Below are positions 54,471 through 58,509 of a stretch of DNA of 64,000 bases, piece after piece. The notes under the pieces were generated by a model. It saw only the letters and a program-made list of their open reading frames with translations, searched no databases and was not told the origin of the DNA. The stretch lies in assembly GCF_018327705.1 (NCBI RefSeq), contig NZ_BNEM01000002.1, positions 1,488,001 through 1,552,000 of the forward strand, given 5' to 3'. This DNA is from Catellatospora sp. TT07R-123 (GTDB lineage: Bacteria; Actinomycetota; Actinomycetes; Mycobacteriales; Micromonosporaceae). Made by a program: the position numbers and the translations under genes. Each line of letters starts with the position of its first letter. The first letter of the stretch is position 1.

Positions 54471-54591
54471 TTCACCCGCACCACCTACCGTCCCAACCCA
54501 CTCCCACCTGCGGCTACGCGTGTCGCGCCGCTCGGTGTCAGCCCGCGGGACCCGGCTCGGCAGGGCCGCCGGGTGTGAGAGCATCGAGCGC

Positions 54592-55359
54592 GTGACGACA
54601 CCGCGCCTCGGTCCGGTCCGCCGCGTCGCCGTACTGGCCGACGTACACGGAAACGTCCCCGCGCTGATGGCGGTGCTCGACGACGTGCGGGCCACCGGCG
54701 CCGACCTGATCGTGTTCCCCGGCGACCTCACCTGGGGTCCGGAGCCGCAGACCACGTTCGACCTGATCCAGGACCTGGGGCGCCGGGCGGTGTGCGTACG
54801 CGGCAACGCCGACCGCGCCGTGGTGGAGCTGGCCCGGGGCGAGCGTGAGCACACGAAGCCGCGCGACCCGTGGATGCCCGCCCAGCACTCCGCCGAGGCG
54901 GTCGAGTTCCTGGCCGCGCTGCCGCTGAACGTGGTGGTGGAGATCGAGGGCCTGGGCGCGGTCCGCTTCTGCCACGGCTCGCCGCGCGACGACACCGAGT
55001 GCGTCACCCCGCAGACCAGCGAGGAGCGGTTCACCGAGCTGTCGGCGGGCGTGGACGAGCAGGTCATCGTCACCGGCCACACCCACCTCCAGTTCGACCG
55101 GCAGGTGGCCGGGCGCCGCAGCGTGAACCCCGGCAGCGTCGGCCTGCCGTACCACCTGGGCATGCCGGGCACGGCCTACTGGGCGCTGCTCGGGCCGGAC
55201 GTGCAGCTGCGCGAGACCCGCTACGACGTGCAGGAGGCGGTCGACCGGTGCCGGATGACCGGCGACCCGAGCGGCGACACGATCGTCGCCCACCTGCTCA
55301 CTCCCCCGACCCCGGACGAGATCATCGCCGACGCCGAGAGCCGCGTCTTCGCCGACTGA
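54592..55359 (+). CDS. Calcineurin-like metallophosphoesterase
   Basis: 255 aa from the GTG at 54592 (the upstream ATG at 54520 would add unsupported residues). The five phosphoesterase blocks are intact: VAVLADVHGN (Asp17, His19), VFPGDLTWGP (Asp45), VCVRGNADRA (Asn72), RFCHGSPRD and VTGHTHLQFD, then NPGSVGLPYH. It belongs to the YfcE/MJ0936-like group of binuclear-metal phosphodiesterases. The substrate is unknown; cytosolic. A 65-bp palindrome follows the stop by 26 bp. Confidence 0.92.
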   Translation: MTTPRLGPVRRVAVLADVHGNVPALMAVLDDVRATGADLIVFPGDLTWGPEPQTTFDLIQDLGRRAVCVRGNADRAVVELARGEREHTKPRDPWMPAQHSAEAVEFLAALPLNVVVEIEGLGAVRFCHGSPRDDTECVTPQTSEERFTELSAGVDEQVIVTGHTHLQFDRQVAGRRSVNPGSVGLPYHLGMPGTAYWALLGPDVQLRETRYDVQEAVDRCRMTGDPSGDTIVAHLLTPPTPDEIIADAESRVFAD

Positions 55360-55385
55360 CAGCGGCCCGGGAGCACCCGTTTTTC

Positions 55386-55450
55386 ATCGACGCTGGCCTA
55401 TCTAGAGGACGAATCGGGAAAAACCGTCCTCTAGATAGGCCAGCGTCGAT
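55386..55450. repeat. 65-bp palindromic element, copy 2
   Basis: Perfect 25-nt arms (55386-55410 and 55426-55450, outer end ATCGACGCTGGCCTATCTAG) with a 15-nt centre. Preceded by a T-run (CCGTTTTTC), as in copy 1. It lies between convergent genes. Confidence 0.92.
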
Positions 55451-55469
55451 CACAAGCCCCCTTCGCCGG

Positions 55470-56351
55470 TCAGGCGGGGACGGGTTCGCGGCCGTGTACC
55501 CAGTCGGGTAGCGGGGTGTCGGGGGCGGCGGTGTGGGTGGCGACGGTCTCGCCGGTGGCCTCGTCGACCAGGGCCAGGCGCACCGACGCGGGTTCGTAGC
55601 GCAGGCGGGGCACCGCGAACACCGCCGAGACGCCGCGCTCACCGTGCCGGCCGGTGAACAGCAGCAACCGCCAGTCCCCCTCGTCCCAGTGCTCGCGCAG
55701 GTCCGAGGTGAGCAGCGCGGCGGTGTCGCGCCATACCGGGCTGCGGTGCAGCTGCTCGACGGTCGAGGCGAGCGGGATGTCGAAGCCGCCGGTGGGCAGC
55801 GGGTGGGTGAGGCGTACCCGCAGCTGGCGCAGGTGGTCGAGCCAGTGCCGGTCGAGTTCGGCCGACAGCGCGAGCACCGCGGCGGCCTCGGCGACCAGGA
55901 CGGCGGCGGCCGGGCCCGGGTTGTCCGCGAGTGCCCCGATCCAGCCGGTGGTGGCGGTCGCCGCCAGCACGCCGGCCGCGATGAGCAGCCCGGCGCGGGC
56001 GAAGGCGCGCCACCTGACGGGCGTACGGGCCGCCGACAGGCACCCGCACGACGACTCCGGCGCGGCCACCTTGGCGTAGCCGAGGTAGCCGGCGAACCCG
56101 GCGGTCAGGGCGACGGCGGCGTACCCGGACAGCGGGCGGGCGGCCGGGACCAGCAGCGCCACCGCGACGGCGGCCTCGACGGCGCCCAGGGCCCGGAACG
56201 CGGGCACGACCCGGGTCTCGCCGAGCAGCTTGGCCAGGGCGGTGCGGCGGGCGGTGGCCTCGGCCTGCGGGTGGGCCAGCTTGAGCCGGGCCGACCACAG
56301 CAGCACGGCCGCGAGCAGCAGCGGCTGCACCGCGGAGATCCACGAGAGCAT
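55470..56351 (-). CDS. MauE/DoxX-like redox-associated membrane protein
   Basis: 293 aa from the ATG at 56351 (GGAGGAG upstream). It has four to five membrane helices (about 4-22, 48-75, 85-105, 125-150 and 157-180). The first part follows the MauE pattern: helix, LLWSARLKLAHPQ, RVVPAFRALGAVEAAVAVAL, then APESSCGCLSA with the C-G-C motif at the membrane face that in MauE/DoxX proteins carries thiol redox chemistry. The C-terminal third is hydrophilic and probably cytosolic. MauE is needed for disulfide-rich methylamine dehydrogenase folding (established). Here it is the last gene of an operon with a 15-Cys protein, so a disulfide-forming role is inferred. Confidence 0.85.
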   Translation of the reverse strand: MLSWISAVQPLLLAAVLLWSARLKLAHPQAEATARRTALAKLLGETRVVPAFRALGAVEAAVAVALLVPAARPLSGYAAVALTAGFAGYLGYAKVAAPESSCGCLSAARTPVRWRAFARAGLLIAAGVLAATATTGWIGALADNPGPAAAVLVAEAAAVLALSAELDRHWLDHLRQLRVRLTHPLPTGGFDIPLASTVEQLHRSPVWRDTAALLTSDLREHWDEGDWRLLLFTGRHGERGVSAVFAVPRLRYEPASVRLALVDEATGETVATHTAAPDTPLPDWVHGREPVPA

Positions 56352-56406
56352 GACTCCTCCTCGGGGGGGTGGGGGCGGGCGCCGTACGGGCACCCGCCCC
56401 GGGCGG

Positions 56407-57018
56407 TCAGTGGCCGTGCGTGCTCGCGTACACGGTGGCGATGTGGATCTCGTTGGTGTCGGGGATCCAGGCGCCGATGACCTGGACGTGCCGGCCCACC
56501 TTGAGCATCGACATGTCGGCCACGGCGGGGGTGGCGTTGTAGCTGACGGCGGAGCGGCCGGGCACCACGTGCCCGACGATGCGCTTGCCCTTGTGGTCCA
56601 GGTGGACCTGGTTCTTGCCGATGGCCGCGATGTGGGCCTGGAGGTTGACGATGTTGATCCAGACCGCGTCGGCGGCCAGGGTGCCGTCCTCCAGGCGCAG
56701 GCCCCGGGCGTAGAGGCCGTCGCCGACGGCGGCGGCGTCGATGCCGGTGGGGTGCAGCTTCCAGACGCTGGTGGCGTTGGTGATCCGGATGCGGTACAGC
56801 GCCGTGTCGGAGCCGGTGACGTACAGCATCCCGGCGGCGATGCCGGTGATGCGGCCCTCGGCGAAGTTCGGGTCGGGGGCGCCCGCGTCGATGGTCTGCG
56901 GGGCGGCGAACGCCGCTTCGGGGGCGAGCGAGCCGAGCGCGGTCGCGGCGACGAGGCTGGCTCCGCCGACGACCGCGGAGGTGAGCAGGCGGCGGCGGGC
57001 CAGGGTGTTGTCGGTCAT
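56407..57018 (-). CDS. Tat-exported OB-fold-like (DUF5666-like) protein
   Basis: 203 aa. The N-terminus DNTLARRRLLTSAVVGGASL is a twin-arginine signal (R-R-R-L-L), cleaved near FAAPQT. The mature part has two similar beta-barrel-like units: GRITGIAAGMLYVTGSDTAL, YRIRITNATSVWKLHPTGID and LRLEDGTLAADAVWINIVNL, then IGKNQVHLDHKGKRIVGHV and VGRHVQVIGAWIPDTNEIHI, a DUF5666-like pattern. No Cys at all. It lies 14 bp after the Cys-rich gene and 55 bp before the MauE-like gene. Inference: it carries the signal-less neighbour through Tat as a folded complex. Confidence 0.8.
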   Translation of the reverse strand: MTDNTLARRRLLTSAVVGGASLVAATALGSLAPEAAFAAPQTIDAGAPDPNFAEGRITGIAAGMLYVTGSDTALYRIRITNATSVWKLHPTGIDAAAVGDGLYARGLRLEDGTLAADAVWINIVNLQAHIAAIGKNQVHLDHKGKRIVGHVVPGRSAVSYNATPAVADMSMLKVGRHVQVIGAWIPDTNEIHIATVYASTHGH

Positions 57019-57032
57019 GTCAGTGGCTCCCG

Positions 57033-57443
57033 TCAGGCCGTGATCGTGCAGGGCTGCAGGCCGGCCGAGAGGCTCGCGATGAGGCTGTACGCGGCCGGGG
57101 TCAGGTCGATGACCCGGTTGGTGCCGCAGACGCCGCCGCAGCAGGCGCGCTCGCCGCAGAACAGGTCGGTCTGCGGGCCGCAGTCGGCGATCGAGGTGGT
57201 GACGGACTTGCCGTTGCACCGGTTGGTGGTGGTGTGCTGGAAGCCGCAGCCGCGCCGGGCCATGCCGCTGATGCCGCAGCTGTCGGGGCGGGTGATGGCG
57301 TAGCACGCGTCCGAGGTGTTCGGCCACGCGTGCTGGCGGTTGCCGGAGTTGCAGGTGCCGCAGGCGCCGTGTCCGGCGGTGCCGCACGGCCCCCATGAAC
57401 TGCCGCAGCAGAACCAGGACATCTCCCCAGTGAGAGCTGCCAT
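57033..57443 (-). CDS. Cysteine-rich double-psi-barrel-like protein without signal peptide
   Basis: 136 aa from the ATG at 57443, after a strong AAGGAGG site. It has 15 Cys (residues 12, 13, 20, 28, 31, 47, 56, 66, 76, 88, 96, 101, 102, 106, 132) and three Trp. The C-terminal third reads SIADCGPQTDLFCGERACCG then CGTNRVIDLTPAAYSLIASL, close to the ending of RlpA/expansin-type double-psi barrels (V-x-D-x-G-P ... R-V-I-D-L-T-P-A-A). No signal peptide is seen, although such proteins act outside the cell. Heads the operon with the Tat protein and the MauE-like protein. Possible roles are wall binding or loosening; unproven. Confidence 0.8.
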   Translation of the reverse strand: MAALTGEMSWFCCGSSWGPCGTAGHGACGTCNSGNRQHAWPNTSDACYAITRPDSCGISGMARRGCGFQHTTTNRCNGKSVTTSIADCGPQTDLFCGERACCGGVCGTNRVIDLTPAAYSLIASLSAGLQPCTITA

Positions 57444-57610
57444 TGAACGCCTCCTTCAAGGTGTGGGTTACCTCTTCGGGTCGGCGATGGGCCCATCGAC
57501 GATGGGTGACATCCTGCGGGCTGCGCGAGAACGTCGTCAATCCATACCAAGAAATTTCTCGATTAAATATGAACCGTGACCTGCTGTCTTATTTGGGAAA
57601 CGCCGAATGG

Positions 57611-57662: not shown

Positions 57663-57947
57663 TCAGCAGAACCAGCCGTCCTGCACCCAGCCGTGGCGGT
57701 TGACGTGGCCGTAGGCGAAGCCGTAGATGAAGCCGCCGCTGCGCGGCCCCTGCACCGTGAAGGTCTCCCCCTGGTAGAGGGTGCCCATCCAGGCGCCGAG
57801 CGGTTCGGTGCGCACGAACAGCGACTGGGCGCAGACGGTCTCGCGCACGCCGACGCGGCCGTTGGCGGCCAGGGCGGGGGCGGGCACCGAGGTCAGCACG
57901 GCCGCGGCGAGTGCGGCGGCCACGGCCGCGCGACGCAGACTCACCAT
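57663..57947 (-). CDS. Small secreted SH3-like protein
   Basis: 94 aa from the ATG at 57947, which overlaps the upstream gene by 7 bp. Signal peptide 1-28 (APALAANG). The mature part, ETVCAQSLFVRTEPLGAWMG then TLYQGETFTVQGPRSGGFIY and VNRHGWVQDGWFC, is a bacterial SH3-type fold (SH3_3) with a Cys near each end that may bond. Such domains bind peptidoglycan or peptides. Co-translated with the following secreted protein. Confidence 0.82.
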   Translation of the reverse strand: MVSLRRAAVAAALAAAVLTSVPAPALAANGRVGVRETVCAQSLFVRTEPLGAWMGTLYQGETFTVQGPRSGGFIYGFAYGHVNRHGWVQDGWFC

Positions 57948-58255
57948 GAGTTGTAGCCTCCGATGCACTCGATGCGCATGTATCCCCAGTCGTTGGGGCC
58001 GAAGTCGAACGTGGCGGCCCAGCCGTTGTAGACCGGGTGCGCACCGGGCGTGTGCCCGATCTTGTCGCCGTAACCGAGGACCCGCTTGAGGCCGTACGGC
58101 CCGTGGGCGGAGTCGTAGTTGTCGTAGAAGCTGGCGCTCTGGCAGATGTTGATCGCGTGGGTGGGCACCACGACCGCCTGTGCGGCGGCACTGGAGGCGG
58201 TGACCAGCCCGACCGCGAGCAGGCACGCTGCCCCGGCCTTGAGCAGTCTGCGCAT
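57941..58255 (-). CDS. Small secreted protein, uncharacterised
   Basis: 104 aa from the ATG at 58255. Signal peptide 1-27 (SSAAAQAVV). The mature part is 77 residues, Tyr/Gly/Asn-rich, with two Cys (INICQSASFYDNYDSAHGPY, IECIGGYNSW). It resembles secreted peptides of actinobacteria with a possible beta fold, but I cannot assign a family. It precedes and overlaps the SH3-like gene by 7 bp. Confidence 0.75.
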   Translation of the reverse strand: MRRLLKAGAACLLAVGLVTASSAAAQAVVVPTHAINICQSASFYDNYDSAHGPYGLKRVLGYGDKIGHTPGAHPVYNGWAATFDFGPNDWGYMRIECIGGYNSW

Positions 58256-58509
58256 GGGTTGCCTTTCGGGGGGCGGCGGCCCGGCGGGGGGTCCGGGCCG
58301 CAGGCGGAACGACGGGGGCGTTGGTGAAAATTCTTGCCGACATTCCATCACCATGGGTCGGTTTCTTTCAACAGTTGTTTCGCACATGTCGATGAAATGC
58401 CATGGTGGCGGGCCCCATTTTCGCGGCACCCACGGTGTGTCGCGCCAGCCTGTGACCTGAACAGCCGGACGCGTACGGTGACCGCACCCATTACGGAAAG
58501 GAGTCGGTC

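Follow-up and report, generated by a model that had tools for sequence, protein, structure and literature searches.

A co-inherited three-gene set of Catellatospora sp. TT07R-123 that may couple disulfide formation to Tat export

We analysed a 64,000-nucleotide stretch (the window) of the 9.17-Mb genome of Catellatospora sp. TT07R-123 (contig NZ_BNEM01000002.1, positions 1,488,001 to 1,552,000), in which three genes, here termed P1, P2 and P3, encode a cysteine-rich protein, a protein with a twin-arginine translocation (Tat) signal and a membrane protein of the MauE family. The trio had been picked out in an earlier reading of the DNA letters (the sequence-only reading), whose coordinates and close spacing proved correct. 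All three genes lie on the minus strand, and from their coordinates the gaps are 14 nt between P1 and P2 and 55 nt between P2 and P3. The components, in window positions, are as follows.

57033 to 57443, minus strand: P1, 136 amino acids, 15 cysteines, no signal peptide; double-psi beta-barrel by prediction; putative cargo
56407 to 57018, minus strand: P2, 203 amino acids, cysteine-free, with a Tat signal and a weak DUF5666 match; proposed export escort
55470 to 56351, minus strand: P3, 293 amino acids, MauE-family membrane protein with five predicted transmembrane helices and CGC at residues 102-104
Residues about 194-274 of P3: extra C-terminal alpha/beta domain; predicted to be cytoplasmic, like the CGC

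The three genes are a set that is inherited together and is found in many actinobacteria. When P1, P2 and P3 were each searched in one set of 101 related genomes, P1 and P2 were detected in the same 28, and P3 in these 28 plus one marginal match (E 4.6e-4). The full trio was present in 29 of the 30 loci from these genomes, and the remaining locus (L026) ends at a contig edge. A scan of named genomes with P1 as query found 174 encoding stretches, the best 80 of which were kept and are the source of all 80-locus counts given here. The order P1, P2, P3 and the strand were the same in 80/80, with P3 cut by a contig end in two loci (L044 and L100, omitted from the P3 alignment A3) and the P2 frame broken in one (L082, omitted from the P2 alignment A4). 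Since these loci were gathered with P1 as query, the reciprocal P2 and P3 searches guard against the bias so introduced. The P1-P2 gap ranges from -11 to 22 nt (mostly 8-17) and the P2-P3 gap from 1 to 240 nt. The genera represented are Catellatospora, Micromonospora, Kribbella, Nonomuraea, Streptosporangium, Sphaerisporangium, Plantactinospora, Hamadaea, Stackebrandtia, Actinoallomurus, Allokutzneria and others, and the closest P1 relatives among the best 80 of 174 are from Catellatospora (99% and 95% identity). Outside the trio, no open reading frame (ORF) recurred in more than 20/80 loci when the ORFs of 11 loci were used as queries.

Profile searches of 200 genomes of the family detected P1 in 48 and P2 in 51; the latter are the 48 with P1, a deletion remnant (G553) and two weak matches of the signal-peptide region in long ORFs. 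In a 396-genome sample of the phylum P1 was found nowhere but in the window's own genome, so the distribution of the trio is patchy. The sequence-only reading had proposed a dedicated cassette and had named the failure of the three genes to co-occur as a finding that would speak against it; the genome searches gave all-or-none co-occurrence, which supports such a cassette.

Three further observations were made on trio loci. In G553, a member of the Micromonosporaceae (L178, 1060-2323), P1 is lost along with the beginning of P2; the end of P2 and P3 remain. Tandem copies of the trio occur in two genomes from a different family of the order (L026, L027, L029 and L030; G064 and G091), with P1 proteins of 17-18 cysteines. 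The locus of Nonomuraea gerenzanensis (L112) lies on an 11.85-Mb record filed as a plasmid (NZ_LT559118.1), whose size looks chromosomal.

P1 is well conserved (74% mean column identity over 81 sequences), and 14 of its cysteines are near-invariant, enough for up to seven disulfides. The predicted structure supports a double-psi beta-barrel fold of the expansin/RlpA/loosenin type and so agrees with the earlier guess; the Pfam DPBB_1 model alone gives 20.6 bits, under its cut-off of 28.8. Residues D87 and D113 are invariant, and both fall in stretches weakly aligned with loosenin and PA4485. The lack of a signal peptide, also claimed earlier, was upheld both by the upstream frame and by N-terminal hydropathy. 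The frame upstream of P1 is open for four codons only and holds no other start, so that P1 is unable to carry a signal peptide, and in 31/80 loci an in-frame stop lies less than 20 codons upstream. Within the first 40 residues of P1, the highest 12-residue Kyte-Doolittle mean averaged 0.89, with a maximum of 1.47 (80 loci); the same measure for P2 averaged 1.76, with a minimum of 1.53 (79 loci). No hydrophobic segment of the P2 kind was found in the first 40 residues of P1 in 80/80 loci.

The N-terminus of P2 starts with MTDNTLARRRLLTSAVVGG, with AFA-A further on. Among aligned relatives the RR pair is present in 80/80 and the AXA site in 80/80, and hydropathy reveals a hydrophobic core, in line with the Tat signal read earlier. 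The P2 of the window contains no cysteine, as had been noted, and 63/80 relatives have none after residue 45. A DUF5666 match, below or near significance, was obtained for 40/80 P2 relatives (best E 3.2e-6). The strict linkage of a leaderless P1 gene to the gene for a Tat-signal protein is that of Tat hitchhiker pairs of the MelC1/MelC2 type. In this Streptomyces tyrosinase system, leaderless MelC2 exits by hitchhiking on its Tat partner MelC1, and the cargo gene adjoins the partner gene as P1 adjoins P2. It differs, as far as the available part of the source goes, in that MelC2 is a copper enzyme and MelC1 its copper helper, in the order partner-cargo, and in being a two-gene operon without a MauE-like protein (PMC2758597). 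It is plausible that P1 likewise leaves the cell on P2, in a putative complex of the two.

P3 matched Pfam MauE (PF07291) with 64.8 bits (cut-off 27), which, together with the CGC at 102-104, bears out the MauE-like membrane protein with a C-G-C motif described before. In its AlphaFold model (predicted local distance difference test score 91), five long helices at the N-terminus are followed by one more at 164-182 and by the alpha/beta domain at about 194-274. K24, E59, Y92, the CGC and R115 are invariant in 79/79 P3 proteins, and the K..E..CGC..R pattern is common to P3 and 24/24 canonical MauE proteins. The role of MauE in methylamine dehydrogenase maturation and its disulfides, which the sequence-only reading took as established, is termed only 'speculated' in the available part of PMC7794033.

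The distribution of charges predicts an orientation of P3 opposite to that of canonical MauE and VKOR, with a cytoplasmic CGC and C-terminal domain. In 79/79 P3 proteins, lysine plus arginine (K+R) residues numbered 14.7 on average (minimum 12) on the CGC side and 0.8 (maximum 3) on the other side. The CGC-side stretches are longer (83 vs 28 residues), and K+R was therefore also counted per residue, which gave 17.7 per 100 residues on the CGC side vs 2.8 on the other, or 17.2 vs 4.1 when the loops were taken from the structure model; the CGC side was higher in 79/79 under both loop definitions. Most of the signal lies in loop 1 and behind the fifth transmembrane helix.

As controls, canonical MauE and VKOR proteins from related genomes were used. 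The MauE control comprised 24 of the 30 loci fetched, themselves part of all matches listed (omitted were L150, of another kind, the trio member L154, and L155-L158, which are divergent or partial). These proteins had 8.7 K+R per 100 residues on the CGC side vs 14.8 on the other, and the CGC side was higher in 2/24, or in 3/24 by plain count. The VKOR proteins (13 of 17 were parsed; L171, L173, L174 and L175 were skipped by the pattern) had 4.3 on the active-site side vs 13.5, and the active-site side was higher in 0/13. In three canonical MauE proteins (L129, L132 and L133), inspection by eye suggests a DsbA-like domain after a further hydrophobic segment, in agreement with a CGC on the outside. 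The controls obey the positive-inside rule and the charges of P3 are reversed, so that its CGC and C-terminal domain are predicted to lie inside; in none of the 79 P3 proteins do the charges point to outer-side active-site cysteines such as those of canonical MauE and VKOR. Oxidation by the MauE-like protein had earlier been placed after export, and the predicted orientation argues against that part of the proposal.

Among the proteins left out of the MauE control, L155 has, by eye, positive loops like those of P3.

Given a cytoplasmic CGC, the most economical reading has P3 oxidising P1 on the inner side of the membrane, after which P1 would fold, associate with P2 and exit through Tat. We hold this reading, in which the trio would be one oxidative-folding and export unit, tentatively and at a little below even confidence. 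P1, a leaderless double-psi barrel, would be reduced when synthesised in the cytoplasm, and the flipped P3 would form its disulfides (up to seven) at the inner membrane face, the electrons presumably being passed to menaquinone. Folded P1 would bind P2, and the complex would exit through Tat on the signal of P2, as MelC2 does on MelC1. Outside the cell, P1 may work as a barrel of the expansin/loosenin/RlpA type that binds the wall or polysaccharides. In the available part of PMC9995818, Tat is described as carrying only fully folded proteins, and cytoplasmic oxidation helped the folding and Tat export of a protein that requires disulfides.

By itself, the CGC loop of P3 is weak evidence on the orientation: when the loop ends are taken from the model, its K+R exceeds that of the whole other side in 41/79 proteins, and its K+R per residue is higher in 59/79. 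Several points weigh against oxidation inside the cell. Disulfide formation is classically extracytoplasmic. Canonical MauE in relatives seems to have its CGC outside, as the DsbA-like extensions suggest, and in P3, too, a domain comes after the fifth helix. Furthermore, reduced growth hormone can pass Tat, and a protein that folds without disulfides can cross reduced (PMC9995818, available part). All this would suit an explanation in which P1 crosses as a hitchhiker of P2 while its thiols are still reduced, and P3, its CGC and C-terminal domain facing outward, oxidises P1 from outside; export followed by oxidation is a possible order if P3 breaks the positive-inside rule. However, a mean of 14.7 lysines and arginines of P3 would then be outside and 0.8 inside, whereas the MauE and VKOR controls obey the rule, and passage of a reduced P1 conflicts with the transport of fully folded proteins only that is described for Tat in the same source. 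We consider oxidation from the outer face rather unlikely.

It is less probable still that P1 stays in the cytoplasm as a cysteine-rich redox or metal-binding barrel working with P3, and that P2 is exported alone as an output or sensor. The stronger fold matches of P1 with a known location are expansins, loosenin, kiwellin and papain inhibitor, which are secreted proteins. Its cysteines also tend to vary as disulfide pairs would: C12 and C20 are missing jointly in L028, and C38 and C80 are jointly present in 6/6 cases in alignment A1 (27 of the 30 loci), but not in 3/4 in alignment A2. In addition, P2 without P1 was seen in the 200 genomes in the single deletion remnant only, the two weak signal-peptide matches aside. 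A cluster for a ribosomally synthesized and post-translationally modified peptide (RiPP), with P1 as a cysteine-rich precursor modified with the help of MauE, has parallels in three decRiPPter candidate families that hold mauE and a precursor of at least eight cysteines (PMC7794033, available part), and in the Streptomyces plasmid clusters described below, where a cysteine-rich peptide is encoded with MauE and a thioredoxin-like protein, as well as with an ABC transporter and a signal peptidase. P1, in contrast, is a well-predicted domain of 136 residues with 74% mean column identity and without a leader or hypervariable core, not the short peptide with leader and variable core of a RiPP precursor, and no ABC transporter or peptidase is found among the conserved neighbours (80 loci, ORFs of 11 as queries). 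A RiPP-like role for P1 is thus highly improbable.

Each element of the trio has a known relative. Among the matches listed in literature searches, none described the trio or a flipped MauE serving a Tat cargo, in keeping with the earlier statement that no described system of this make-up was known. In the mau cluster (MauE, MauD), a protein of the MauE family, to which P3 belongs, is believed to assist the maturation of the disulfide-rich light chain of methylamine dehydrogenase. P3 differs by its added C-terminal domain and predicted flip, the latter relative to canonical rather than classical MauE, and no MauD or other conserved neighbour was found beside the trio (80 loci, ORFs of 11 as queries; the light chain, PF02975, was not searched). 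The fold of MauA differs from that of P1.

A small cysteine-rich product and a DoxX/MauE-type protein also occur together in the decRiPPter mauE families and in siamycin-type lasso clusters (PMC7794033 and PMC7168211, available parts), and in the latter HumE (DoxX) and HumF (thioredoxin) are assigned disulfide formation (PMC7168211). There, the products are peptides, which in the clusters analysed here come with leaders, ABC export and a thioredoxin-like partner; the trio, which lacks a thioredoxin, pairs a folded domain with a Tat partner. Streptomyces plasmids (L176:4757-8589 and L177:4665-8561) encode a small cysteine-containing peptide whose start resembles a leader, together with MauE-like and thioredoxin-like proteins, an ABC transporter and a signal peptidase of the S26 type. 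The MauE-like protein (CRC motif) has positive loops. In the thioredoxin-like protein, a neutral N-terminus and one hydrophobic segment precede KRLREHT. By these charges both redox centres would be inside, and this kind of MauE, with its thioredoxin-like partner, would be a parallel to P3.

A natural topology promoting disulfides in two compartments is reportedly, to go by a title cited in PMC12453122, that of Aeropyrum pernix VKOR, which is an archaeal VKOR and not a MauE. CyDisCo, whose enzymes are Erv1p and PDI, is artificial and differs from the trio in the enzymes used. Combined with Tat, it resembles the proposed route in that disulfides are made in the cytoplasm ahead of export (PMC9995818, available part). 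That the trio is a natural pathway of this kind, with a flipped MauE-type oxidase, disulfides at the cytoplasmic face and then partner-borne Tat export (nature's CyDisCo-plus-Tat), is conceivable, though we regard it as doubtful. If true, disulfide formation in these bacteria would not be bound to the outside, and an inward membrane enzyme would oxidise chosen clients before export, which would answer how a disulfide-rich protein satisfies the demand of Tat for folded cargo. Should flipped MauE also serve ABC-exported cysteine-rich peptides, oxidising first and exporting later would be a general actinobacterial strategy. The trio would also serve as a compact natural tool for the secretion of disulfide-rich proteins, by the fold-first route that biotechnologists had to engineer, and it yields a testable claim on MauE and on other MauE/DoxX proteins adjoining cysteine-rich products.

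Two features flank the trio.

57536 to 57560, minus strand: promoter-like element of the trio, with TTGAC (57540-57536) and a AGAAATTTCT box just upstream; kept in near relatives
55381 to 55455, no strand assigned: inverted repeat of 31 bp with a 13-nt loop, 94% complementary; terminator-like

The combined TTGAC plus AAA..TTTC pattern, which was composed only after the alignment of the upstream regions had been seen, occurs in 21/80 loci and in 0/3692 control stretches. The inverted repeat sits between P3 and an ORF on the plus strand (54520-55359). Upstream of the trio, at 57663-58429, there are small minus-strand ORFs, the N-termini of which look signal-peptide-like by eye.
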